Source of the DNA: a virus | Length of the DNA stretch: 27,682 bases | IMG/VR virus record: IMGVR_UViG_3300009314_000073 | Location: 1-27,682 of that record | Strand: one strand, 5' to 3' | Position numbers and translations under genes: made by a program | Shown: one piece after another, positions 20 to 27,591 of the stretch | How the letters are laid out: the number at the start of each line of letters is the position of its first letter | Numbering within the stretch: position 1 is the stretch's first letter | Notes under the pieces: generated by a model | What the model saw: only the letters and a program-made list of their open reading frames with translations | The model's database searches: none | What the model was told of the DNA's origin: nothing

Positions 20-229
20 ATGGTCTCATATATCGATACTCCATTAGATGTAGATAGTTACTTCCTGAAAGTCTACTGCGATCCGACCCGGGACGTTGAC
101 CGGAGCGCAAGAAACTATAGAGGCTGGAATAGTACCTGCATCAAGGCAACCAGATGGGCCGGGCCAGACGTAACCTGCCTGGATTGCCCACTAAAAGAGT
201 GTGTTTATCAAAGGAGTAAATATGGCTGA
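20..229 (+). CDS. small cysteine-rich protein, function unknown
   Basis: A 69-residue protein whose second half has four cysteines, the last three in a C-L-D-C-P-L-K-E-C pattern (about residues 54-61). Such a cluster could bind zinc or an iron-sulfur centre, but the fold cannot be named. Similar Cys-rich mini-proteins of unknown role occur next to replication genes in many phages. The start is supported by AAGGAG about 5 nt upstream. The stop overlaps the start of the replication initiator by 8 nt, so the two are probably translationally coupled. Confident that it is a gene; function unknown. Confidence 0.65.
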   Translation: MVSYIDTPLDVDSYFLKVYCDPTRDVDRSARNYRGWNSTCIKATRWAGPDVTCLDCPLKECVYQRSKYG

Positions 230-992
230 CCCGCAACCGGAAGATGCACACCTGAGAGTAGCGCACAGCATCAACGAAGCTATAATGCTAAGGGACTTCT
301 CCAAGCGCCAGCGGAAGATACTGGACCTTATCCTCCGGCTGTCCTGGGGCTGTGGCAAGAAGACCGCTATCATAACGCGGCAGAAGGACTTTGCCGTTGT
401 AGGGGTGGGTGAAGGGCATATCAAGGCAGAGGTTATATGGTTATTACAGAGCAAGATTATTTTTATAGAAGGTAATGAGTACCGGTTTAACAAGAATTTT
501 GATGATTGGCAAATATCAAGAGTCCATCCCTTTGAACCGGAAAAACTTACCGAAATGGTAAGATTAAACCTTATTAAAACTTACCAATTACCGAAACAGG
601 AAGAAAGTACTTACCGAAACGGTAAGTTTCTTGAGCCTGAGTTAGCCTCGCCTAAAGAAATATTAAAGAAATATATAAATAAAGAGGAACCAGATAATAA
701 TATTAATAATAATTACGAAAACAGAGAAATGGCTGAAAAGATATGGAGTGACGTGTTGGTGAAAATCAAGGGCCATGTCAGCAAGCCAAATTACAATACC
801 TGGTTTAGCAGGACGGTAGGGTTGTCGTGCGAGGATGGTGTTTTTAAGGTGCTGGCTCCCGCGACAGTTATTGACCACATAATGGGGAATATGTGCTCGA
901 TGGTGGAGATGTATATTATCGAGGTGGCCGGGGAAAGGATGAAAGTCCGTTTATACCCATTACAGGTTACTGGTCCAGAAGAGCCGCCGTAG
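222..992 (+). CDS. replication initiator: phage Rep_O-like N-terminal domain fused to a DnaA domain I-like C-terminus
   Basis: A 256-residue protein. Residues about 10-95 read like the winged-helix N-terminal domain of lambda O-type initiators: a helix with A-x-x-I-N-E-A-I-M, then F-S-K-R-Q-R-K-I-L-D-L-I and the L-S-W-G-C-G-K-K block. Residues about 170-240 match the DnaA N-terminal domain pattern (I-W-S-D-V-L, S-K-P-N-Y-N-T-W-F, then V-L-A-P-A). A lysine- and asparagine-rich linker (about 140-168) joins them. By family knowledge, the N-terminal domain should bind origin iterons and DnaA domain I-type folds bind the replicative helicase. So this protein may open the origin and recruit host DnaB by itself; that part is inference. 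ATG 222 is preferred over GTG 201 because AAGGAG lies at 211-216. The gene carries palindromic iterons and an AT-rich block at 546-720, as lambda O does. Confidence 0.8.
   Translation: MADPQPEDAHLRVAHSINEAIMLRDFSKRQRKILDLILRLSWGCGKKTAIITRQKDFAVVGVGEGHIKAEVIWLLQSKIIFIEGNEYRFNKNFDDWQISRVHPFEPEKLTEMVRLNLIKTYQLPKQEESTYRNGKFLEPELASPKEILKKYINKEEPDNNINNNYENREMAEKIWSDVLVKIKGHVSKPNYNTWFSRTVGLSCEDGVFKVLAPATVIDHIMGNMCSMVEMYIIEVAGERMKVRLYPLQVTGPEEPP
546..626. repeat. palindromic iterons inside the initiator gene
   Basis: Two 17-bp palindromes, CTTACC-GAAAT-GGTAAG at 546-562 and CTTACC-GAAAC-GGTAAG at 610-626, differ only at the last base of the 5-nt centre. A third, degenerate copy (14 of 17 positions match) lies at 587-603. 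Isolated half-sites are at 580-585 (CTTACC) and, more weakly, about 570-580. Approximate starts 546, 570, 587 and 610 give helical-turn-scale spacing. These are probably binding sites for the encoded initiator. Confidence 0.75.
546..720. other. putative lambda-type replication origin
   Basis: Iterons at 546-626 are followed by a very AT-rich block at about 655-720, in which nearly every codon is Lys, Asn, Ile, Tyr or Glu. This is the lambda ori arrangement: initiator sites then a DNA-unwinding element, all within the initiator coding sequence between its DNA-binding domain and its partner-binding domain. The iterons and AT block are seen directly; origin activity is inferred. Confidence 0.65.
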
Positions 993-1289: not shown

Positions 1290-1448
1290 ATGGGTGATAA
1301 AGAAGCAATAGAGATAATGAAAAAGCATGGTATGACCCAAGAGGAAGCAGAGGAATTTCTGGCAGGAACTAAAAAGGGCTGTGAGGATTATAAAAAGGGC
1401 AATATGCGCCGGTGGAGTGATGTTAAAAAGGAGCTTGGTTTAGATTAA
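1290..1448 (+). CDS. small hypothetical protein (52 aa)
   Basis: A short ORF with a strong GGAGG (1280-1284) 5 nt before its ATG. It encodes a mostly helical, charged 52-residue peptide: an E-A-I-E-I-M-K-K-H stretch, then M-T-Q-E-E-A-E-E-F, ending K-K-E-L-G-L-D. It sits between two real genes in the same direction and without overlap. The T-Q-E-E-A-E-E-F section could be part of a helix-turn-helix, but it is too short to place. No function is assigned. Confidence 0.5.
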   Translation: MGDKEAIEIMKKHGMTQEEAEEFLAGTKKGCEDYKKGNMRRWSDVKKELGLD

Positions 1449-2665: not shown

Positions 2666-3163
2666 ATGGTTACTAAGAATAATAAAAAGAAAGAGATATC
2701 ACAGGCTTCGACCTGCCAGAATAAAAAGCTGTTCCTTGAGAAATATCCCGAATATGGCAGCGTTGGGGCTACTATGGCAGCAATTGGGGTTAAATGCCGC
2801 CGCACGTTCTACAAATGGCTGGATGCAGATCCGGCTTTCAAGGAACAGTACGAAACAGAACTTCTCCCGAACCGCAGGGATGAGCTGGTATCTTTGCTTT
2901 ATCGTGTGGCCACAGGGCGGCTTGGTACGCACGTTAAAACATATATCAGGAAAGACGGCACAGAAACTACCGAGGAAGTACCCAACGAGATACCCGCCAC
3001 GCAGCTAACCGGCATATTCGGATTCCTGAAAGCTACAGACCATAACGATATACCGGACTCACCAGACCGCCTGCATTTTACGGAGAAACATCAACTGGAG
3101 ATGGCTGGCAAAGGTGGAGGTCCGGTGAAGATTGTAGTGGTAGAAGATGGCAATGACCAGTAG
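2666..3163 (+). CDS. terS: terminase small subunit
   Basis: A 165-residue protein. Residues about 24-60 form an HTH of the type seen in phage small terminases and phBC6A51-like proteins (Y-G-S-V-G-A-T-M-A-A-I-G-V, then R-R-T-F-Y-K-W-L-D-A-D-P-A-F-K). A helical oligomerisation section follows, and then a C-terminal tail ending in V-K-I-V-V-V-E-D. It would recognise the packaging start site and load the large subunit. Its last 17 nt overlap the terL start, which is the usual coupling and the strongest contextual support. The SD is a modest AGGGG. Confidence 0.75.
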   Translation: MVTKNNKKKEISQASTCQNKKLFLEKYPEYGSVGATMAAIGVKCRRTFYKWLDADPAFKEQYETELLPNRRDELVSLLYRVATGRLGTHVKTYIRKDGTETTEEVPNEIPATQLTGIFGFLKATDHNDIPDSPDRLHFTEKHQLEMAGKGGGPVKIVVVEDGNDQ

Positions 3164-4487
3164 AGAGTACAAAGTCCATCTGCGTTCATCCTCTGAGCAT
3201 GAATCACAGGACAGATTTATAACCTCTGTCACTAAGCGGATAATCATTAAGGCTGGTAGACGTGGGGGAAAGACTGTAGGAGTGGCTAAGAGGGCTGTTA
3301 AACGGTTCCTGGCGGGCAGACGTGTACTATATGCAGCTCCCACTTCAGAGCAGACGGCGGCGTTCTGGTTTGAAGTGAAAAGGTCGCTCCAAGAGCCGAT
3401 AGATGCCGGTGTACTCAGGAAAGACGAGACCCGGCAGATAATAGAGGTAGCCGGTACAAAACAGGCTATCAAAGCAAAAACAGCCTGGAATGCTGATAGT
3501 CTGCGCGGTGACTACGCAGACGACCTGATAATGGATGAGTATCAACTCATGAATGAGGATGCCTGGTCGGATGTTGGTCAGCCCATGTTGCTGGATAACA
3601 ACGGTGATGCAGTATTTATATTCACTCCTCCAAGCCTCAAATCAACCGGTGTCAGTAAAGCCAAAGACCCTCGCCATGCTTCTAAGATGTTTAAGAGAGC
3701 ACAGGCCGATGTGACCGGGTTATGGGAAGCGATACATTTCACCTCGCACGATAATCCGTTTATATCTAACGAGGCATTACAGATAATCACTGCCGATATG
3801 TCACTGGACAGCTACCGCCGTGAGATTATGGCTATGGACGATGAAATAGAGCATTCATGGCTGGTCTACGGTGTATTCAACGAGACATTGTGCAAATGTA
3901 AGCGGTTCGAGATACCTACGACATGGCCGGTATACTCCGGTCACGACTTCGGCATTGCTAATCCCGCAGCATTGTTTGTAGCGCAGAATCCGGGGCAGGA
4001 TGAGCCGAGGACATCAACTTTCAACCAGGTGCGCAAGGGCGATTTCGTCATATTCAGGGAATACTGCCCTGGCGGTGGATTATCAGCGTTTAACCACATT
4101 GAAAACTACAAAGAGATTACAGCCGGTTACACGATAAGGCGCAGTGTTGGCGGTAATCTGACAGGCGAGGATGATTCAAGAAGTCTTTACACTTCGCATG
4201 GCTGGCCCATAATGCCCCCGAAGTTTGCCAAGATTAACCCGCAGATAGACCGGGTAATAGGTTTAATGGAGCTTAACAAGCTACACATATTCGAGGACTT
4301 GCACAACCTGTTACTCCAGATAGCTAACTGCCTGTGGGTACTGGATGATGAGAACAAGCCGACTAACAAGATAGACCAGGAAGCTAAATATCATATGCTG
4401 GCTTGCCTCAGATACATTATGAGTGATTTTGCCCCTGAGACGGCTAACGCAACACCAGGATTCAAAGTACATAAATGCAGGATGTGA
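3147..4487 (+). CDS. terL: terminase large subunit (packaging ATPase-nuclease)
   Basis: A 446-residue protein, typical of TerL. Walker A is G37-R-R-G-G-K-T43. Walker B is L127-I-M-D-E-Y, with E131 as the catalytic carboxylate, followed by a Q-L-M motif. The coupling motif is F-I-F-T-P-P (about 157-162). The RNase H-like nuclease domain begins with H-D267-F-G-I-A-N-P. The C-terminal Y-H-M-L-A-C-L-R-Y-I (415-424) corresponds to the conserved last nuclease helix, although the usual Asp there appears as His or neighbouring residues. The protein cuts concatemeric DNA and pumps it into the prohead through the portal encoded next. Confidence 0.95.
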   Translation: MAMTSREYKVHLRSSSEHESQDRFITSVTKRIIIKAGRRGGKTVGVAKRAVKRFLAGRRVLYAAPTSEQTAAFWFEVKRSLQEPIDAGVLRKDETRQIIEVAGTKQAIKAKTAWNADSLRGDYADDLIMDEYQLMNEDAWSDVGQPMLLDNNGDAVFIFTPPSLKSTGVSKAKDPRHASKMFKRAQADVTGLWEAIHFTSHDNPFISNEALQIITADMSLDSYRREIMAMDDEIEHSWLVYGVFNETLCKCKRFEIPTTWPVYSGHDFGIANPAALFVAQNPGQDEPRTSTFNQVRKGDFVIFREYCPGGGLSAFNHIENYKEITAGYTIRRSVGGNLTGEDDSRSLYTSHGWPIMPPKFAKINPQIDRVIGLMELNKLHIFEDLHNLLLQIANCLWVLDDENKPTNKIDQEAKYHMLACLRYIMSDFAPETANATPGFKVHKCRM

Positions 4488-6331: not shown

Positions 6332-6345
6332 ACTGAGGTAGCATT

Positions 6346-6483
6346 ATGAAAAAGCTGACGATGGCAGAAGTAGACAAGATGATATTTAAGCGGTTAGAAA
6401 GAGCCGATAGAGGGAAATTAGGGGATTTGGTACGGCAGGCATTAAAAAAGTTTAAGGGGACAGGTAGACAAGATGACATTTAA
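6346..6483 (+). CDS. small ORF duplicating the start of the following giant gene
   Basis: A 45-residue basic peptide. Its residues 12-22 (M-I-F-K-R-L-E-R-A-D-R) are nearly the same as residues 1-11 of the giant protein (M-T-F-K-R-L-E-R-A-D-R), because 41 bp of DNA are duplicated. Its stop codon lies 11 nt inside the giant ORF. A TGAGG about 8 nt before the ATG could serve as SD. It may be a leader peptide coupled to the giant gene or a leftover of the duplication. Confidence 0.4.
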   Translation: MKKLTMAEVDKMIFKRLERADRGKLGDLVRQALKKFKGTGRQDDI

Positions 6484-6504
6484 GCGGTTAGAAAGAGCCG
6501 ATAG
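6370..6504 (+). repeat. 41-bp direct repeat around the start of the giant gene
   Basis: Copies at 6370-6410 and 6464-6504 match at 40 of 41 positions, 94 bp apart. The second copy contains the ATG of the giant ORF (6473). Because 94 is not a multiple of 3, the copies lie in different frames with respect to each other, but both are read from an ATG in the same phase within the repeat. Confidence 0.9.
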
Positions 6505-9500
6505 AATGAAGTGGCACCCGATGGATATTATCGCTCGTCCTAAAAGGCGAGAAATTAATATTGACGAGTATCCCGACCTTCTGAGAAGACAGATAGAGGA
6601 ATTAGAGGGAAAAGGTTTGTGGAGCGATTTTGAAAACCTTGTTCGTGACGAGATACCACAGCCGAAACTTATACCACCTGAAACGCTGCATACCGAAGGG
6701 ATAGAGCTTGACGCAGGTGTTCAATTAGAGGCAGGTGTAAGCAAAGCCGGTGAACTTCCCCCCATTACCCTGATTGACAACGGCAACAGACTCATTCTTG
6801 ACTATGAGACAGGCGAGTTTAGAGAAGCTAGCCAGTCAGAATATGAGATGTGGGAATTATTCTACCGTGATTTTCCTTCAATCAAGCCGGGTACTCCTGG
6901 CGAGATGACATTGGTTGAAGGGGTAACACCAGAGAAGATACAAGAGAGGCAATATGGTATTGGCGGAGATATTGAGGCTGTTGATGCTATGGAAGCAGCA
7001 AGGTGGCAGGCACAGCAAGGTTGGGACATAGGGCAGGACCTAGCTTATATTCAAGCAGGTCAAGAATACCAGATGGATATGGAAACAGCTATTAAAGGTC
7101 TGTATCCCGATACCAATTACGATAACTTTGCCAGATTTGTAGAGAATCATCCAGACCAGTTCGTTCAGGACATCATGGACAAGGGACGGACACCTGAGAC
7201 GGAGGCATTGTTAAGTGCTATAGGAGTAAGTCCTGCTGAGGTTTATGGTGTCGAGCCTGCCGATGTCCCTTATGAAAAGTTACCCGGACAATTTACGGAA
7301 GGGGAACACAAGGAATATTACGAATCTCAGGTAAGGAATATCCGGTCACTTTATCCCCAACCTCCTTATACAAGGGAACAGATGAAGACTGACTGGTATA
7401 AAGAGATGCGGGCGGAGGAGACTAAGGCATGGGAAGATTATCAGGAGACATTACCAGGCTTTGAGGAAAGTTTTGTCGGTCAAGTCTTCGAGGCTTTTGA
7501 TAACGTATTTGCCTTACTGGGGCTATCTACCAGAAGTATGTTTACTGATTCCGTTGGTGTGAAAGCCCCTGAATTGGGCGATTATTACCAGCAACTTAAA
7601 GAAGGCAAGATAACACGTACCGAATACCTACAGAAGGTAGAACAATGGCATGGACGTGCAACTGAAGTAAAAGAACAGTTTAGAGAATTGCCTTTGTGGG
7701 AACAATTACTGTGGGAAGGCCCTGCTATAATTATTGATATGTTTCCATCAATGGCTACATTATCTTTAAGAGGCGTTACCTCATTACAAGCCAAGATGTA
7801 TGAAATCCTGTTGAATAAAGGACTCGACCAGTTAATAGCGAAGATGAGTAGAGGTGTTCAACCTGCAAGAAATCCCGCACTACAGAGAGCACTTTATAGA
7901 CTATTCAAGGGTGACAGGGCGGAAGTGGCTGAAAGAGCTACCAATAACTGGCTTAGACGCATGGGGAAAGACCCTAACAATACGAAGATAATGAAAGAAG
8001 CAGTAGAAGAAACTATGGAGGAGTTGGAGACTTTACTTCTACCTGCTGTCACTCCGGGCGGTACGGCAGTCCCAGGTCAAGTAAAACCCCTAGCCGAACT
8101 GATTAAGGCAGCGGAAGGCGTACCGAAAGTTACCGAAGCAGTAGTCCCTGAGACAGCAAAGGCTGTAGGTAAGGCAGCGGAAGGCGTACCGAAAGTTACC
8201 GAAGCAGTAGTCCCTGAGACAGCAAGGGCTTTGGCTGGTGTGGAAGCTAGGTTGAAGAGAGGGCTTCTAAGTGCTCAACAGATATCTGATTTTAGGGTGG
8301 GTACTGATAAAGTTGTACGTGAGGGTGGCAAAACATATGTAGTAGATACTGAGGGTATTCGTGCGAAAATACAAGTACAGTCTGATATATTGACTCCTGA
8401 TGTTGTAGCAAATATTAACAAGTTAAGTCCTGAACAAAAGACTAAGATGTTAGAAGCTGTTCAGTCTACGCCTTACCTTTCAGATGAGGGGCGTGCTGAA
8501 AGATTAGCATTATTGAAAGAACCTACTCCTCCAAAAGTCACACCAGAAGTCCTTGTTAAGCCACTTGCTGAAAAGCCCACTCCCAAAGAGGTTACAAAAG
8601 AACCCTGGGAAATGACGAGAGAGGAATGGATAAAAGAAGGTAGGGGTAATCCTGAACTTCATAAATTGATTGTGGAGGAGAAATTAAAATCTCAAACACC
8701 ACGAACTAGAAATGTTGTACCGCCCGAAGTATTAAAAGACTATCCTGATTTAGTAAAACCTACTGCAACCGCAGAGGATATTACTGCAGCAGTAGTCCCT
8801 GAGACAGCAAGGGCTGTAACGGGGGTAAAGGCTGAGTTGGGTGGTGAAATAAATGCAACATTACGTGAAATAAATGCAACATTACCTGAAGGTTGGCGTA
8901 TAGAGATTGGTGAAATTAGAATCAAGCCTGGGATGGAGGAAGTCGCAACAGGTAAGGCAATGGTAGATTGGCTAAGAAAGGTAATTGTTGTTCGTGATGC
9001 TAATGTAATGCGTGATAACGCTGTTATAAATGAGGAAATAGCACATGTAAGACTTGAAGAACTACCTAGTGAAACAATGAAGGCAGCAATAAGTGAATAT
9101 GAAGTGGCTGCCAAGTATGAACCTATAGAAATTAGAAGTCAATATGCTAGACGTGAAGGTTTTGGGGGTGATTACGGTAAGTATCTTACAGACCCTTCAA
9201 ACGTAAGTCCTGAGATTGCCTCTGTATTTAGAAAGTATTTCCCTACCAAGCCAGTACCCGAAGTCTTAAAGGACTACCCCGATTTACAAACCAAAGCTGA
9301 AGTAGAGGAAGTGGTTAAAGAACCACCTATTGAGGCTATGGAGGAGTACCCTGATATTACAGGGGCAGATGATCTTACTATATCAGCACGGCAAGCAGGT
9401 ATAGATGCTTTTATGGATGATGCCAGTCAGGAAGATATGGTTGCTTCTGCTAAGACAGCTTTAAACGCACAGTCTGAGGCTGCCAACCTTCCACCTCCTA

Positions 9501-12500
9501 ATATACCACCTGCGAGAGTAGGACATATTGGTAGTGGTGGCAAGAATCCCGAAAATGCCCTCTATGATATGACCAATAGAATCATCCACGGAGAAGATGC
9601 TGGAAGGGCTGCTGTTAGAATATGGTCGGGTACTAGAAAAAGGATGGCTACCGAAGCTATATCATGGTGGAAGAAGGGCAATGAAACGCTTAAAAATATG
9701 GGGTTAGGTACTACTGAGGGGATTAATCAAAGGCTAACTAAAGAAGACAGTTACGATTTATTCAAAGCCCTGCACGGTGAAGGCAAAGTCCCTAAGAATC
9801 TAAAACCAGTTTATGATGATTTGAAGAAGATGCTCGACCAGGAGGCTTCAGATATGCTGGCATTCGACCCTAGTTTCTCAAGGGTAATGATGGCACATCC
9901 TGATTACTTCCCTAGAGGCTGGAAACCCCCCAAGGCAGAACAAGCGGGTAAATATAAGTTAGGTGCTAAACCGGGCTTTCTTAAACCGAGAGTAGACGCC
10001 ACATTCACAGAAATGGTCGAAGCTGGATGGGAACCTATATCATGGAATCCCTACGATATGGCAGCTTTAAGACGTGTTGCCGGTACTGAATACAGAGAGG
10101 GATGTATCCTGATTGACAGGTTGAAAACATTTGGCAAGGCTATTAATGAGAATGATGCACCGAGAGAGGGGTGGAGAGTTCCTAAAGTTGGTCCCGCATT
10201 TGAAGGCAAACCCTATGTCAGTACCGATGGCAAAGCCTACATGACACCTAAAGTAGCCGTGCCGAATAGAATTGCGGATATACTCGAAAGTACCTATGGG
10301 GTAGAGATAGAGTTCCGTATCGCAGGCGTTAATGTATTTGGAGCGTTAAACGCCTTTGGTGCTTTTACAAAAAGAGCAAAGTTGTTCGGTTCTTTATTTC
10401 AGCACTGTGATTTCTTGACCAGAGATTATATAACAACGTTTACGCCTGAAGGAATAAGACATGGTGAGCCTTTAAAGTTTCCCGCACTGGCGGCTAAGGT
10501 TACATGGTCGGCACTTAGTCCTACTCATAGAGCTAATTTGGAAGCTCGTATTTTGTCAGGTGAGCCATTATATGAAGACTCTACTATAACACTCAAGATG
10601 ATAGCTGATTCAGGTTGGGAATTAGGTGCGGATGAAATGCTTATCCGCAGAGACGTGAGAGAGCAACTTGAATCAATAGTAAAGGAAACTAAGGGGTGGA
10701 AAACCTTTAAACCGATTGCAAATCGTTTAGATAGTATAGCTAAATTCTTTGAGGCAGGTTTATTCGATGGCGTATATAGAGAATCACAGGCGTATGCACT
10801 GGAGCACGTTATAGTACCGAGATTAAAAAGACTTCATCCAACATGGACTGACGAACAAATAGCAGGATCGGCTGCCGAGGAGGTAAATAAACAATTCAGT
10901 ACATTACCTGTATGGCAGAGTGCATTACAACAGCCGGCAGTCAGAGCCATAGCAAGGACATTAATCTTCAGTTCAAACGAAACAGAGTCGTGGATAAGAC
11001 AAGCTACCAGCGCAGTTAAAGGAGAGAATAAGCTATATTGGCAAGAATATGCAATATCTACCTTTGTTTCACTTGCTATAGCTGCTAACGCAATCAACCT
11101 TATATCTGAAGGCGAACCCTTACCGCCTGATAGATACTTACCGATAAAGCTTCATAGTCCTTATAGTCATATGCCCTGGGGTATAGCTTATAATGATAAA
11201 TTCCTGTCACCGCGACTACCCTGGAATGGTAGAAATGGTCAACCTATATACCTCGATATAGTGGGACAGGCTGATACATACCTTAGATGGATTCTTGACC
11301 CTGCTGGTGCTCTAACTGCCAGATATAATGTACTACCCAGAGCAGTAATGAATCAGATACAGGGGCGTGATTTCTGGGGTAGAGAACTAGAAAATATGGG
11401 AGAACGGTCAAGGCAGGCGGTTAATGACCTCTTTATGCCTATAGGTTTTGGCAATCTGGTGGAAGCGGGCAGGCTTATGTGGCCTGTAGTTGGCAATGTT
11501 ATACCGGAACAAGAGGGTAGAATAGGTATTGTAGGCTCACTAATACAGGCAACTGGTTTGAATGTGCGGTCTATAAAGACCAGGGATATGCTTGATAAGT
11601 ATGCAAGGGAAAGTGGGCTAAAAAAGGCGGATGGCACACCGGTTACTCAGTGGTCAGACTTAGAACCTGCACAAAAGAAAAACTTTGGGAACAATACCGA
11701 ACTACAGGAAGAAATGGGGTTGCGGGGAGATACAGCAGTAGAACGGAAGTACCCCGGTGCTAAAGCATTCGCCATACTCGATGAGTTAGACCAAGAGAGG
11801 ATAACACGCGGTGATGCTTTAGTATCTGAGCTTGTAAGTGATTTGATTGGTGAGGAACGGGCAGAAGGCTTTGAATTCTCCAGGAGTTTCAGAGACGAAG
11901 TTACTAAACTCAAAAGAGAAATAGCCAACAGAAAGTCACAGGTTGATAGGGACTTTGAGTTATTCAAGGATACGGGAAAACTACCGGAGGACCTCAATAA
12001 AAGAGCATTAGTTGAATATTATAATATGTTCGATGAGTCAAAAAGACCATCCGGTGCTATTGATTGGGAATTCTTAAATCAGAAAGAGGAAGACCTGCGG
12101 AAAAAGTGGACACCTGAGCAAGAAGCCTTTGTAGACAGGAATACCGGGCTTACAGAGTGGGGTCCGTTGATGAAGGAATACATAGACAATCAAAAGGTGC
12201 TCAATGATTCGGGCTATTGGGATGAAGAGGAACGGGACAGAAAGGCAATGCGTTACTTGAAGCCGGAAATTGAGGACATTCTCACCGGCAAGTTCTATAA
12301 TTATAAACCAATTTCTAAGGAATCTGAGAAATTAGGGCTTAAATGGCAAGATGTCTATAGGCAGATAGATACCTTTAAAGAGAAATATAACGAGATGTCA
12401 GATAGTGACATTAATAACATTGTTCCCCCTGAAGGTATTTCCCAAGAACTGTGGAATAACATGAGCGTTAAAAACAAAAAAGGCGCTCTACTTGATATCT

Positions 12501-14104
12501 ATAAAGAATCATTATATGAGATAAACCCTGGCTTTTGGGAAGACGATAGAAAGAAATCCGCTTGGAGTACTATCGGTGACAAATTAAACTATAAGCATGG
12601 TGAGATAGTTGCCAATGAATTTGTGGAATACAGCAGAGCCGTAAAAGAACACGGAGCTAATAGCTGGCAGGCTTTACTTTACCGATACCGGAGTACAAAG
12701 TTAAATGCCTTTGGTATACAGGAGGGTACGTTTTCTACTGATGGATGGCATGAGTTAGATACTAGCCAAGTGCCAGTCTGGGAAATAAAAGAGACGTGGA
12801 ATACCTTAATTGAAGAAAGAGAAGCGTGGAAAGACCCTGACTCTGGCCCTGACATTTTTATTGCTGATGATGAGACAATGATACACCCTGAGACGGGTGA
12901 GACAGTCAATAAAAGACGCTATACGTATGATAAACAATATAAAGATAACCCTGAGTATCGGGATGCCATGAGCAGAATGCAGGTGTATCAGTGGGGCAAT
13001 GATACTGAGACGATGTTGAACGCCCATGTTGGATATAACCATGTAGTTGATGAATTCGGTGGTAACAGCCCGGAAGCTTACCTGCACCGATTCAAACATA
13101 CTGATTACAATAACTTCCGTACAAATAAAGATATTCCTGGTATGGAGGTACTCCAACCATTAGACGAAAAGAAAGTGCCATTGTGGGAATTGAAAGTGCA
13201 ATGGAAAGAGGAGGAGGATTATTACGACAATAAAATACCGGAATTGTTTGCCGATATAAAGGATAAGGACAAACGCAATAAAGCTATACGGGAAAGGAGA
13301 GCACGTGAGTTGTCTACTAACGAGGATTACCGTAAGGGCAGGCGTGCTATAGAAGGCCTTGAAAAGGGTATATCAAGCAAATATATAGAGGATTATGTAT
13401 CTCATTATGAATTACCAACGAAGGGTTACGCTAGAGAACATAACTTAATTAAGAATATACATTTGGCAAACGAGATGAGGGATGCAGGGATTATCACAGA
13501 GATAACCCCTGCTAACGAATTGCCCGACCCAGAATATGACAGACTATACGCTGATAACAAAAACCGAATTGACGAGTTAGACGATATGACCGGGGACGAA
13601 AGGGATAGCGAACTTAAAAAGGATGTAAACCGTAATCTTGCTATGGTGTATTACAAGAGACAGGCTTACAAGGAGTTTATCCCCAAAGAGCACGTAACCG
13701 AATATGCCGAATATATGTATAAGTACGGGCTCCATAGTAAGCCTGATGATTGGCCGCCCGATGATAGGTGGTGGGAGCCTTACTGGTATCTGGATGAGCA
13801 TAGGGGTTTATATAAGGCTATCAAGGAATCGAGGGAGTGGGAAGCAAAGGACTTTCGCAATATGCCGCCCCGGGAAGTGTGGAAACTGTACCTGGAGTAT
13901 CTTGAAGAGCCTGACTACAACAAAAAGCAATTCAGGGCTGATAACAGGGACTTGGACGTGTGGGGACAAGGGGCTAAAAGCTGGGCCCCTATTGAGGACT
14001 GGGTAAGACGCCAGGAGGAAAAGCACGGACTTCACGGGGAGAAACCGGAAGTGCCGGATTGGAAAAAGATGATTGAAGAGTGGCACAGAGCCGGTGTGAG
14101 ATGA
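6473..14104 (+). CDS. giant (2543 aa) putative internal/ejected virion protein
   Basis: A single ORF of 2543 residues between portal and scaffold, about 28% of the window. The N-terminal third is acidic and low in complexity, with a 22-residue tandem repeat (545-588), a 7-residue tandem repeat near 790-805, and four Y-P-D-[L/I] motifs (33, 757, 935, 959). Hydrophobic stretches occur near 412-435 and 1525-1547. Residues about 1010-1720 are the best-ordered-looking section and resemble large polyvalent or internal virion proteins of podovirus-like phages, from memory only. The C-terminal part is rich in Trp, Tyr and charged residues and contains a diverged domain duplication (about 2025-2110 and 2160-2250). 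No polymerase, lysozyme or protease motif was confirmed. It may be packaged in the capsid and ejected with DNA. ATG 6507 is an alternative start. Confidence 0.65.
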   Translation: MTFKRLERADRMKWHPMDIIARPKRREINIDEYPDLLRRQIEELEGKGLWSDFENLVRDEIPQPKLIPPETLHTEGIELDAGVQLEAGVSKAGELPPITLIDNGNRLILDYETGEFREASQSEYEMWELFYRDFPSIKPGTPGEMTLVEGVTPEKIQERQYGIGGDIEAVDAMEAARWQAQQGWDIGQDLAYIQAGQEYQMDMETAIKGLYPDTNYDNFARFVENHPDQFVQDIMDKGRTPETEALLSAIGVSPAEVYGVEPADVPYEKLPGQFTEGEHKEYYESQVRNIRSLYPQPPYTREQMKTDWYKEMRAEETKAWEDYQETLPGFEESFVGQVFEAFDNVFALLGLSTRSMFTDSVGVKAPELGDYYQQLKEGKITRTEYLQKVEQWHGRATEVKEQFRELPLWEQLLWEGPAIIIDMFPSMATLSLRGVTSLQAKMYEILLNKGLDQLIAKMSRGVQPARNPALQRALYRLFKGDRAEVAERATNNWLRRMGKDPNNTKIMKEAVEETMEELETLLLPAVTPGGTAVPGQVKPLAELIKAAEGVPKVTEAVVPETAKAVGKAAEGVPKVTEAVVPETARALAGVEARLKRGLLSAQQISDFRVGTDKVVREGGKTYVVDTEGIRAKIQVQSDILTPDVVANINKLSPEQKTKMLEAVQSTPYLSDEGRAERLALLKEPTPPKVTPEVLVKPLAEKPTPKEVTKEPWEMTREEWIKEGRGNPELHKLIVEEKLKSQTPRTRNVVPPEVLKDYPDLVKPTATAEDITAAVVPETARAVTGVKAELGGEINATLREINATLPEGWRIEIGEIRIKPGMEEVATGKAMVDWLRKVIVVRDANVMRDNAVINEEIAHVRLEELPSETMKAAISEYEVAAKYEPIEIRSQYARREGFGGDYGKYLTDPSNVSPEIASVFRKYFPTKPVPEVLKDYPDLQTKAEVEEVVKEPPIEAMEEYPDITGADDLTISARQAGIDAFMDDASQEDMVASAKTALNAQSEAANLPPPNIPPARVGHIGSGGKNPENALYDMTNRIIHGEDAGRAAVRIWSGTRKRMATEAISWWKKGNETLKNMGLGTTEGINQRLTKEDSYDLFKALHGEGKVPKNLKPVYDDLKKMLDQEASDMLAFDPSFSRVMMAHPDYFPRGWKPPKAEQAGKYKLGAKPGFLKPRVDATFTEMVEAGWEPISWNPYDMAALRRVAGTEYREGCILIDRLKTFGKAINENDAPREGWRVPKVGPAFEGKPYVSTDGKAYMTPKVAVPNRIADILESTYGVEIEFRIAGVNVFGALNAFGAFTKRAKLFGSLFQHCDFLTRDYITTFTPEGIRHGEPLKFPALAAKVTWSALSPTHRANLEARILSGEPLYEDSTITLKMIADSGWELGADEMLIRRDVREQLESIVKETKGWKTFKPIANRLDSIAKFFEAGLFDGVYRESQAYALEHVIVPRLKRLHPTWTDEQIAGSAAEEVNKQFSTLPVWQSALQQPAVRAIARTLIFSSNETESWIRQATSAVKGENKLYWQEYAISTFVSLAIAANAINLISEGEPLPPDRYLPIKLHSPYSHMPWGIAYNDKFLSPRLPWNGRNGQPIYLDIVGQADTYLRWILDPAGALTARYNVLPRAVMNQIQGRDFWGRELENMGERSRQAVNDLFMPIGFGNLVEAGRLMWPVVGNVIPEQEGRIGIVGSLIQATGLNVRSIKTRDMLDKYARESGLKKADGTPVTQWSDLEPAQKKNFGNNTELQEEMGLRGDTAVERKYPGAKAFAILDELDQERITRGDALVSELVSDLIGEERAEGFEFSRSFRDEVTKLKREIANRKSQVDRDFELFKDTGKLPEDLNKRALVEYYNMFDESKRPSGAIDWEFLNQKEEDLRKKWTPEQEAFVDRNTGLTEWGPLMKEYIDNQKVLNDSGYWDEEERDRKAMRYLKPEIEDILTGKFYNYKPISKESEKLGLKWQDVYRQIDTFKEKYNEMSDSDINNIVPPEGISQELWNNMSVKNKKGALLDIYKESLYEINPGFWEDDRKKSAWSTIGDKLNYKHGEIVANEFVEYSRAVKEHGANSWQALLYRYRSTKLNAFGIQEGTFSTDGWHELDTSQVPVWEIKETWNTLIEEREAWKDPDSGPDIFIADDETMIHPETGETVNKRRYTYDKQYKDNPEYRDAMSRMQVYQWGNDTETMLNAHVGYNHVVDEFGGNSPEAYLHRFKHTDYNNFRTNKDIPGMEVLQPLDEKKVPLWELKVQWKEEEDYYDNKIPELFADIKDKDKRNKAIRERRARELSTNEDYRKGRRAIEGLEKGISSKYIEDYVSHYELPTKGYAREHNLIKNIHLANEMRDAGIITEITPANELPDPEYDRLYADNKNRIDELDDMTGDERDSELKKDVNRNLAMVYYKRQAYKEFIPKEHVTEYAEYMYKYGLHSKPDDWPPDDRWWEPYWYLDEHRGLYKAIKESREWEAKDFRNMPPREVWKLYLEYLEEPDYNKKQFRADNRDLDVWGQGAKSWAPIEDWVRRQEEKHGLHGEKPEVPDWKKMIEEWHRAGVR
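8104..8225 (+). repeat. 66-bp period tandem repeat in the giant gene
   Basis: A 56-bp stretch is identical at 8104-8159 and 8170-8225, giving two copies of a 22-residue unit (K-A-A-E-G-V-P-K-V-T-E-A-V-V-P-E-T-A). The tail of the unit (A-V-V-P-E-T-A-R-A) reappears near 8787-8819, so the unit has spread within the gene. Confidence 0.9.
8844..8885 (+). repeat. 21-bp perfect tandem duplication
   Basis: The 21 bp at 8844-8864 are repeated exactly at 8865-8885, adding seven residues (E-I-N-A-T-L-R then E-I-N-A-T-L-P) in frame. The perfect identity implies a recent slippage or duplication event. Confidence 0.9.
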
Positions 14105-24022: not shown

Positions 24023-24196
24023 ATGAAACTACATCCTATAAGAGCTACGTTAGCTATTTTAAGTACCCTCATAACGGGAACACTGCTCTACCTTTATTAC
24101 TTCACAGGCATGGATGTACCGGATTGGTGGGCGGCTATTTATGCTGTAATCATCACATTCTACTTCACGGCAAGGAAGTCAAATGGAAGTAATTGA
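24023..24196 (+). CDS. small two-helix membrane protein, holin-like
   Basis: A 57-residue protein with two hydrophobic segments, A-T-L-A-I-L-S-T-L-I-T-G-T-L-L-Y-L (about 8-24) and W-W-A-A-I-Y-A-V-I-I-T-F-Y-F (about 34-47), separated by a short polar turn. It has a basic start and a charged end (A-R-K-S-N-G-S-N). This is the class II/III holin layout and the position after tail genes fits. ATG 24023 with AGGGGG upstream is used rather than TTG 24002. It overlaps the phosphoesterase gene by 14 nt. Holin activity is inferred. Confidence 0.6.
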   Translation: MKLHPIRATLAILSTLITGTLLYLYYFTGMDVPDWWAAIYAVIITFYFTARKSNGSN

Positions 24197-25932: not shown

Positions 25933-25961
25933 TTGACAAAAGTATGTATATGGTATATAAT
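25933..25961 (+). promoter_or_regulatory. consensus sigma-70-type promoter
   Basis: TTGACA (25933-25938), 17 bp, then TATAAT (25956-25961): both hexamers perfect with the optimal spacer. It lies after a terminator and about 33 nt before the ribbon-helix-helix gene. TATAT-GGT-ATATA across the -10 is an imperfect inverted repeat that a small repressor could use. Confidence 0.9.
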
Positions 25962-25993
25962 ATAGACAATACTTAAGTTAGGATTAAAGGGTT

Positions 25994-26161
25994 ATGAGCG
26001 TAGAAGTAGAAGATACGATGTCAATGCAGAAAAAGTTTTTAGTCAAATTGCCTGAGGATGTGCTAGCTAAGATTGGTTCTGCTGCTATAGCTATGGGAAT
26101 TTCCAAATCTGCCATTATCAAAATCGCTATTGCAGAGTACCTCGGCAAGCCTCGTCAATAA
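25994..26161 (+). CDS. ribbon-helix-helix DNA-binding protein
   Basis: A 55-residue protein with the ribbon-helix-helix pattern: strand Q-K-K-F-L-V-K-L-P, then E-D-V-L-A-K-I-G-S-A-A-I-A-M-G helix, then I-S-K-S-A-I-I-K-I-A-I-A-E-Y-L. This is the CopG/Arc-type fold, which dimerises and inserts the strand pair into the DNA major groove. An AAAGG lies upstream of the ATG. It has its own consensus promoter and is followed by a terminator, so it is expressed independently of the late operon. It may repress its own promoter. Length suits the family. Confidence 0.8.
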   Translation: MSVEVEDTMSMQKKFLVKLPEDVLAKIGSAAIAMGISKSAIIKIAIAEYLGKPRQ

Positions 26162-26194
26162 CAATCGGTAAAGTAAAATCTGAGGGGTTTTACG

Positions 26195-26335
26195 ATGAAA
26201 ACAATACCGAGGAAAACAAGCCAACTTCACATAACATATACGGTCAGCTCAATAGTATATACCAATACTACCTTACATAAATATATTTCAAACACATATT
26301 CCAAGCCTATAGTTTACATAAGCGGGACACCCTGA
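26195..26335 (+). CDS. possible small Thr/Tyr-rich protein (46 aa)
   Basis: A 46-residue ORF with GAGGGG about 8 nt before its ATG, 33 nt after the ribbon-helix-helix gene. It is rich in Thr, Ser, Tyr and Ile (T-Y-T-V-S-S-I-V-Y-T-N-T-T-L-H). Its stop lies inside the stem of the terminator that follows. It may be the second gene of a two-gene cassette or a non-coding 3' UTR. Composition is unlike its neighbours. Confidence 0.35.
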   Translation: MKTIPRKTSQLHITYTVSSIVYTNTTLHKYISNTYSKPIVYISGTP

Positions 26336-26356
26336 ATTAACAGGGTGTCCCTTTTT
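26324..26356 (+). terminator. intrinsic terminator of the ribbon-helix-helix cassette
   Basis: GGGACACCCTG (26324-26334) pairs perfectly with CAGGGTGTCCC (26341-26351) across a 6-nt loop and is followed by TTTTT. An 11-bp perfect stem. Confidence 0.9.
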
Positions 26357-26856: not shown

Positions 26857-26924
26857 TTCGTAAATTCTCCATAGGCAGCAAAGTAGTACAGTCAAAGGCA
26901 AATAGTAGTCTGATAGGCACCTAG
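26853..26924 (+). CDS. possible micro-ORF coupled to previous gene
   Basis: A 23-residue frame whose ATG overlaps the previous stop as ATGA (26853-26856). It is basic (M-I-R-K-F-S-I-G-S-K-V-V-Q-S-K). Only the coupling geometry supports it. Confidence 0.25.
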   Translation: MIRKFSIGSKVVQSKANSSLIGT

Positions 26925-26976
26925 TAAAGAGACGGTGCAATATATAGGTGTTCTACACTCAATATGAGGCTGGTAT

Positions 26977-27216
26977 ATGGAACTTGTAGATTGGACAAAA
27001 TACAGAGTTAAAACACTGGAATTCGGGGAATGGACGATTACAGCGAATAGTGCTGACCACGCTATTGATTTCTTGCCTCTAAAGCATAGGGAAGGCGCTA
27101 CTGCTGTTGAAGCCATCTACGTAGACATTTGTTCTCATCACCCTCCCCTAGATATAAATAGAGGCCACCGATTGGTGGCCTCGGCCCTGCCGCCGAAGCG
27201 ACAGGGGAAGTACTAA
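26977..27216 (+). CDS. hypothetical protein (79 aa), 3' end doubtful
   Basis: A 79-residue ORF with a GAGG about 10 nt before its ATG. The first 50 residues look coding-like (L-E-F-G-E-W-T-I-T-A-N-S-A-D-H-A-I-D-F-L). The last 25 residues are encoded by the two stem-loops that on the other strand form a probable small RNA, so the natural end or the whole frame may be fortuitous. No family recognised. Confidence 0.4.
   Translation: MELVDWTKYRVKTLEFGEWTITANSADHAIDFLPLKHREGATAVEAIYVDICSHHPPLDINRGHRLVASALPPKRQGKY
27151..27215 (-). ncRNA. putative minus-strand small RNA with two stem-loops
   Basis: Read on the minus strand from about 27215, the transcript has a first hairpin (27206 to 27185) with a 9-bp stem, one G-U pair, and a cUUCGg tetraloop. 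After two bases a second hairpin follows (27182 to 27161) with a 9-bp perfect stem GAGGCCACC/GGTGGCCTC and loop AATC. Then comes a U-rich stretch TATTTATATC that may serve as terminator. A near-consensus minus-strand promoter lies just upstream (27249-27222). Predicted length is about 60-65 nt. No match to a known RNA family is claimed. Confidence 0.6.
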
Positions 27217-27221
27217 ATACT

Positions 27222-27249
27222 ATTATAGCACATGGCTTGCTTTTGTCAA
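27222..27249 (-). promoter_or_regulatory. minus-strand consensus promoter
   Basis: On the minus strand TTGACA (27249-27244) is followed by 16 bp and TATAAT (27227-27222): both hexamers perfect. Transcription would begin near 27215 and run to the left, opposite to every gene in the window. Confidence 0.8.
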
Positions 27250-27253
27250 TAGG

Positions 27254-27278
27254 GTAGAAGTTGGAACCGTAGAAGTTG
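27254..27278 (+). repeat. 10-bp direct repeat, possible operator
   Basis: GTAGAAGTTG occurs at 27254-27263 and 27269-27278, 15 bp apart, just upstream of the minus-strand promoter and upstream of the gene at 27316. It may be a regulator site. Confidence 0.45.
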
Positions 27279-27315
27279 ACCGGGATAAATATAGAGGTAA
27301 AAAGGAGCAACAACC

Positions 27316-27591
27316 ATGATAATAGGTAATTACAAAATAGAATCCGACCCTTTAAATGTTACCTTATCAGAGAAAAAACTTATCGCAAAGGATACCGAGA
27401 AAAGCAAAGCCGGTGATGAATACTGGTCGGTTATAGGCTACTACGCCACAACCGAAGAGGCTCTCAGGGCTATGGCGAATTACCGCATCAAAAAGTCGGG
27501 ATTAAAAGATAGAGAGTCGCTCCGCAAACTACTTAAAGAAATTCACGAAGAAATCCAGACAGCCAAACAACTTCAATCCTCAGACACGTAG
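27316..27591 (+). CDS. small hypothetical protein of a common phage early type
   Basis: A 91-residue protein with AAAGGAG about 9 nt before its ATG. It starts I-G-N-Y-K-I-E-S-D-P-L-N-V-T-L, then E-Y-W-S-V-I-G-Y-Y-A-T-T-E-E-A-L-R-A-M. It ends with a long charged helix (L-R-K-L-L-K-E-I-H-E-E-I). This layout is familiar from small hypothetical proteins in early regions of many Gram-positive-type phages; their role is not known to me. A short inverted repeat CCTCAGA/TCTGAGG (27578-27605) spans its stop. Confidence 0.7.
   Translation: MIIGNYKIESDPLNVTLSEKKLIAKDTEKSKAGDEYWSVIGYYATTEEALRAMANYRIKKSGLKDRESLRKLLKEIHEEIQTAKQLQSSDT

Follow-up and report, generated by a model that had tools for sequence, protein, structure and literature searches.

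The stretch of DNA analyzed here, which we call the window, comprises the 27,682 bases of a metagenomic phage record without terminal repeats. Its minus strand contains a sigma-70-type promoter (27222–27249) consisting of the –35 box TTGACA (27249–27244), a spacer of 16 nucleotides and the –10 box TATAAT (27227–27222), which is extended by a preceding TG. The two boxes match at 12 of 12 positions, for which a dinucleotide-preserving simulation predicts 0.02 occurrences per window compared to the two that are observed, the other being located at 25933 on the plus strand. The promoter is followed by a predicted small RNA of about 65 nucleotides (27151–27215, minus strand), whose exact 5′ and 3′ ends are estimates. 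It folds into two hairpins of nine pairs each, the first (27185–27206) with the sequence CCCUGUCGC-UUCG-GCGGCAGGG and a C(UUCG)G loop, the second (27161–27182) with the sequence GAGGCCACC-AAUC-GGUGGCCUC and a terminator-like appearance. A modest U-rich tail (27151–27160, UAUUUAUAUC) completes the unit and coincides with a predicted terminator-like site. The calculated folding energy of the RNA is –37 kcal/mol (z = –5.3), a stability that was reached in none of 200 shuffled sequences. The first-pass annotation had described a promoter with a 16-nucleotide spacer at this place, followed by two perfect stem-loops, the second with a U-rich tail, and all of these elements are present as claimed.

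Conservation and distribution of the RNA

In searches of Rfam 15, we found no match in the window at the gathering score, the region gave only chance hits at E-values up to 10, and the copies of the RNA in relatives matched no family either. A Dehalococcoidia MAG encodes an 80% relative of the phage's capsid protein, and the 111-nucleotide region was therefore searched in 393 Dehalococcoidia genomes, where the best relative shows 82% identity over nearly the whole query. When aligned, the relatives prove to share the –35 box and hairpin 1, followed by a linker (CGAG or GCGAG), hairpin 2 and the U-rich tail. With covariance models, the RNA was detected in 73 of the 393 Dehalococcoidia genomes (E ≤ 0.001) and in 57 of 400 Chloroflexota genomes (E ≤ 1e-6), the latter with up to five copies per genome, and relatives were also identified on Leptospira, Serratia, Phaeobacter, Paenarthrobacter and mycobacterial elements. 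Copies in tandem occur and carry separate promoters. When searched with covariance model R2, which was built without the window, the phage RNA is recovered as the sole match in the window with 72.2 bits and E = 1.7e-20, and the R1 match spans positions 27148–27212.

The conservation of the structure is manifested in an alignment of 60 copies, where 96.9% of cells are paired and 13 of 18 pairs have changed on both sides, although these counts are biased towards the structure because the alignment was fitted to the model. The covariation score amounts to 0.332, compared to 0.178 ± 0.007 (sd) after shuffling and at most 0.115 in slid structures, and a similar picture was obtained from a first MAFFT alignment of 15 sequences. 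Whereas hairpin 1 (six of nine pairs changed on both sides in the A3 alignment) is conserved family-wide in sequence and structure, hairpin 2 (seven of nine pairs changed) combines a variable loop with a conserved stem containing many compensatory changes, in which 99.8% of cells are paired. A TTGAC sequence is found 34–40 nucleotides upstream of the RNA in 45 of the 60 copies compared to 1.2% of control bins. The RNA is thus a member of a conserved structured family, which is not private to the phage and is absent from Rfam 15. The covariation of paired bases in relatives, for which a search in related phages had been suggested as a check in the first-pass annotation, together with the conserved position of the promoter, bears out its assignment of a compact minus-strand small RNA gene.

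A two-hairpin RNA consistently paired with NYN nuclease genes

In 48 of 59 copies, the RNA is followed on the same strand by a gene encoding a protein of about 210 residues, which matches the Pfam family NYN (PF01936) at 1.4e-9 and no other Pfam family. The distance between RNA and gene is mostly 2–37 nucleotides for single copies and about 93–152 nucleotides for the upstream copy of a tandem. The usual arrangement therefore has the order promoter, RNA, terminator and NYN gene, with convergent and tandem variants. This NYN protein family is found on 442 plasmids. Residues D8, N11, E110, D114, D139 and D141 are invariant among 16 NYN proteins and, as judged from these sequences, the conserved acidic residues show that the bacterial partners retain an intact active site resembling that of PIN-like nucleases. 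Four of the proteins, from Chloroflexota, E. coli, Leptospira and Klebsiella, match the PADLOC profile HEC-09 over their full length with E-values between 7e-25 and 2e-44, whereas the window itself retains only 11 NYN codons. HEC-09 is listed in PADLOC as a single-protein candidate, and we know of no RNA partner described as part of it, whereas the NYN protein is here paired with an RNA. The term HEC refers to Hma-embedded candidates, for some of which antiviral activity was shown, HEC-09 not being among those named, and in one strain study HEC-09 correlated with phage susceptibility and not with resistance (PMC12447246). The literature searched, which lacks most subscription journals and preprints, contained no direct test of HEC-09 and no link between an NYN protein and an RNA antitoxin. 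Some Klebsiella plasmids (e.g. OW967273.1, 50553–51230) list the NYN protein under the name '6-hydroxy-3-succinoylpyridine 3-monooxygenase HspA', which is probably misleading for a nuclease.

The arrangement of RNA and nuclease gene varies between elements. Covariance models locate the RNA beside NYN genes on Leptospira, Serratia and Phaeobacter plasmids and, in convergent orientation at the end of the NYN gene, in a Mycobacterium prophage and a Paenarthrobacter plasmid. The convergent layout is also found in three Chloroflexota loci. The RNA forms a separate convergent gene at the 3′ end of the NYN gene in L104, L108 and L121–L123, and together with L124 these make up the loci in which it is convergent to, or downstream of, NYN; L104 and L108 contain a TTGACA at the usual place upstream of the RNA. 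Such convergent genes point to an action in trans, and the range of positions in which the RNA is encountered (upstream, tandem, convergent and solitary) fits a separate trans-acting gene better than a cis leader. In plasmids of E. coli and Klebsiella, about four repeats of 33 nucleotides (3.5–3.8 copies) and then a strong terminator lie ahead of the NYN gene. Each repeat constitutes a CCUGUGGC/GCCGCAGG hairpin, the last one carrying the compensatory changes CCUACGGC/GCCGUAGG. A search for the E. coli plasmid repeats in phage records found no match. Of 17 loci from plasmids and phages, 10 have a terminator by a strict rule within 100 nucleotides upstream of the NYN gene, compared to 3 of 55 other genes in these stretches. 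The p-value of 7e-6 overstates the significance, since some of the 17 loci are closely related to each other (E. coli with Klebsiella; three from Leptospira). Another group of enterobacterial NYN plasmids contains two 28-nucleotide repeats with a spacing of 53 nucleotides (GCGATTAAGTTACGC...) in front of the NYN gene (L112, 938–1018; L147, 154–234), with an RNA that is unlike the others.

About 10 of 48 RNA loci in bacterial chromosomes contain the RNA only, and in two of the bacterial orphans (L070 and L071) a truncated NYN gene is found. The fraction of pairs kept is 96.3% in orphan RNAs and 97.1% in those linked to NYN genes. At one locus (L125, G267:C1:806500–808300), a broken NYN gene lies between RNA copies, three in all, that are encoded on the other strand. 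At another (L041), an RNA of the Rfam family DUF3800-IX (1342–1411, minus strand) is located beside a DUF3800-like gene, with an orphan NYN-partner RNA about 60 nucleotides away. The Rfam RNAs DUF3800-I to -XI resemble the family described here as small structured RNAs tied to a gene of a little-known protein family, and they differ in RNA structure and in the protein, the RNA described here matching no Rfam family.

A phage cassette with the NYN gene cut to 11 codons

In the phage, promoter, RNA and the first 11 codons of an NYN gene form a cassette (27106–27249, minus strand) that has been acquired, as indicated by its homology to the Dehalococcoidia locus L034 (G070:C28). Both share 126 of 146 identical positions (86%, blastn) between the first base of TTGACA at 27249 and codon 11 of the NYN gene at 27106, and the similarity ends on both sides. 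The remnant of the nuclease gene (27079–27138, minus strand) starts with the homologous sequence MRTNVYVDGFN (27138–27106), continues with SSSAFPML and then reaches a stop codon; beyond these 11 codons, no further NYN homology was found in the window. The phage record, which may be incomplete, thus contains promoter, RNA and terminator and no nuclease gene. Compared to L034, hairpin 1 is identical, two stem pairs of hairpin 2 differ on both sides with pairing being kept, and the –10 box is TATAAT where this nearest relative has TACCAT. In the NYN remnant and the bases preceding it, only 1 of 44 nucleotides differs, which suggests that the cassette may be recent. Because of this possible youth, selection to keep the RNA is not readable from a single genome.

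A comparable situation is found in two Leptospira phages (L119 and L120), which are both related to NYN-bearing plasmids and which have kept the RNA with the NYN gene being absent. One Leptospira phage shows 94–98% identity to an NYN-bearing plasmid in its flanks, and in one of the two hairpin 1 is shortened. The host of the phage described here presumably belongs to the Dehalococcoidia. Four genomes were compared with the phage in search of a match that would establish its host, and besides the RNA region they yielded only one match, of 46 nucleotides, in G376. Queries of phage records with positions 26900–27400 returned chance matches of about 30 nucleotides, and no relatives of the flanking proteins at 27316–27591 and 26977–27216 were found in viral contigs. 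No true relative emerged when viral contigs, with near-window records excluded, were scanned with patterns representing hairpin 1, hairpin 2, a promoter combined with a UUCG hairpin, and the conserved core. Relatives of the early region identified via the nuclease gene at 24183 are not collinear and contain no RNA above chance (best E = 0.09), and consequently they gave no empty site. The RNA region falls outside the near-identical contig G001.

A putative RNA antitoxin and competing readings

Known type III toxin–antitoxin systems mainly employ one toxin family. Their layout of RNA repeats, terminator and toxin gene is regarded as a mark of the class in a review (PMC5086642), and published ToxI-family repeat units comprise 34–36 nucleotides in 2.8–5.5 copies (PMC12373285). 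The NYN loci resemble type III systems such as ToxIN, CptIN, TenpIN and AbiQ in the combination of a promoter, a structured RNA, an intrinsic terminator and an RNase gene with a mobile distribution, and in the 33-nucleotide repeat arrays of the E. coli and Klebsiella plasmids. As in type III systems, where the RNA gene is next to and normally upstream of a co-oriented RNase gene, this order prevails here (48 of 59 copies, with a convergent or downstream minority), and a terminator separates RNA and NYN gene, as found family-wide in hairpin 2 with its U-rich tail and in the 10 of 17 loci mentioned above. In contrast to the arrays that are typical for type III systems, the Chloroflexota RNAs consist of one or two two-hairpin units, the window containing a single one; the RNA is sometimes a convergent gene, and inhibition of the NYN protein is putative. 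In Pfam, the partner is assigned to NYN PF01936 only, and we thus refer to the system as type III-like and not as a member of a named family, since its presumed toxin is an NYN protein and not ToxN, CptN or TenpN. A further parallel is provided by AbiF/RCd22 from Clostridioides difficile, in which a small RNA neutralizes the protein in cis and trans (PMC12373285). That RNA also has a terminator and its own promoter, there dependent on SigA, and is located directly upstream of an RNase gene (PMC12373285), whereas the nuclease is HEPN-like and the RNA motif is different. In case of phages, PhiTE contains a pseudo-ToxI, and its escape mutant PhiTE-F has hijacked ToxI by recombination with toxIN (PMC3475682). 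Like the window with its putative antitoxin, both contain the RNA partner of an RNase system of the host and lack the toxin gene. PhiTE-F arose under selection and was tested, whereas we describe a natural metagenomic phage; compared to PhiTE, RNA and nuclease are unrelated and the RNA has a promoter of its own.

By analogy to ToxIN and AbiF/RCd22, we propose that the RNA would bind and inhibit the NYN nuclease. The strong promoter would yield much RNA and read-through of the terminator little nuclease, leaving the RNA in excess, and infection or loss of the RNA would liberate the nuclease, which would then cleave RNA and abort phage growth. The phage might have recombined with a host locus and gained promoter, RNA and terminator while leaving the toxin behind, and by making the RNA during infection it would keep the nuclease bound, as PhiTE-F does with ToxI. 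The orphan RNA thus suggests that the phage has taken the RNA 'off switch' of an RNA-cutting enzyme suspected to act against phages. We consider the chances about even that the phage RNA is such an orphan antitoxin of a type III-like NYN system, captured without its toxin and possibly acting as a decoy; neutralization of the nuclease and decoy function are inferred from the analogy, and an orphan RNA alone is no proof of a decoy since RNA-only copies are also found in bacterial chromosomes. More tentatively, and with a likelihood falling somewhat short of even, the system might protect bacteria of several phyla against phages, with at least two unrelated phage lineages (the Dehalococcoidia phage and the Leptospira phage-plasmids) carrying the RNA as counter-defense without the nuclease. 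A similarly guarded judgement applies to its novelty as a previously undescribed system that would be type III-like but based on a PIN-like nuclease. If true, the type III class would be widened by an unrelated nuclease with its own RNA, whose distribution extends from Chloroflexota to small plasmids of E. coli, the defense candidate HEC-09 would gain an RNA partner and a likely mechanism, and a natural phage with only the RNA would be the environmental counterpart of the PhiTE-F escape observed in the laboratory. The E. coli plasmid version makes the system directly testable.

Among the competing readings, the strongest views the cassette as a neutral piece of a host or prophage RNA–NYN locus, which has lost the nuclease and whose promoter, RNA and terminator persist by virtue of their youth, so that the RNA may be made without being of use to the phage. 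The small divergence of the NYN remnant from L034, which perhaps left too little time for decay, and the bacterial orphans with truncated NYN genes are in line with this proposal. We nevertheless regard it as rather unlikely in light of the perfect promoter in place of the TACCAT of L034, the 18 of 18 intact pairs with compensatory differences in hairpin 2, the retention of the RNA in two Leptospira phages and the equal preservation of pairs in orphan and linked RNAs. A lower likelihood still is ascribed to a cis-acting leader, in which the hairpins would be an attenuator for self-control of NYN expression by the protein or a signal, with no antitoxin being involved and the phage copy constituting a cut-off leader. 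Although the terminator ending the RNA is found a few nucleotides ahead of the NYN start codon in most loci, a leader would be of no use in the convergent or downstream arrangements, two of which retain the TTGACA box, in tandem copies with separate promoters or in copies without NYN gene.

Regulation by antisense pairing appears very improbable. The first-pass annotation had correctly noted that the RNA overlaps in antisense orientation with the 3′ end of a 79-residue open frame (26977–27216, plus strand) and had offered control of this frame as one possible function. The overlap results from the imported cassette, which covers the 3′ part of the frame from about position 27106, whereas the 5′ part may represent a phage gene that the insertion interrupted. 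The frame shows no Pfam or PHROG match and no detected relatives, while conservation of the RNA extends across a phylum in which its neighbors are quite different, its bacterial copies adjoining NYN genes, and it is the hairpins that are conserved and not unpaired seeds. The alternative suggestion of a protein decoy or defense-related RNA has fared better, since the RNA is the partner of an NYN ribonuclease listed as a defense candidate, with the role as decoy being presumptive. Finally, chance hairpins or a bidirectional terminator in the absence of an RNA gene, for which the terminator-like hairpin 2 and the match of a model fragment on the plus strand at this site might speak, are refuted as a full account by the family-wide covariation, the fixed promoter distance and the independent model match.

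Several further features of the window were recorded. A compact repressor-like unit at 25933–26351 on the plus strand, 0.8 kb from the RNA, comprises the second 12/12 promoter (TTGACA-17-TATAAT, 25933–25961), a CopG-like ribbon-helix-helix gene (25994–26161) and a strong terminator (26324–26351). Just upstream of the RNA promoter and on the other strand, a small protein (27316–27591, plus) matches PHROG 154, a replication initiation protein, at 2e-16. The frame at 201–992 (plus) encodes a replication protein O fused to a DnaA N-terminal domain, and the near-identical contig L013 contains 16 extra residues (NGKIIGTELTETVSSN) in the linker between both parts. A lambda oop-like antisense RNA near the replication O gene (rep_O, starting at 201) had been considered and was dropped after the NYN partnership appeared. 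The terminase (3147–4487, plus) shares 58% identity over 189 residues with its counterpart in the Methanosarcina virus MetMV, whereas the capsid points to Dehalococcoidia. Finally, a 71-bp imperfect duplication precedes, and short repeats are located within, a frame of 2543 residues at 6473–14104 (6341–6505 and 8130–8230).
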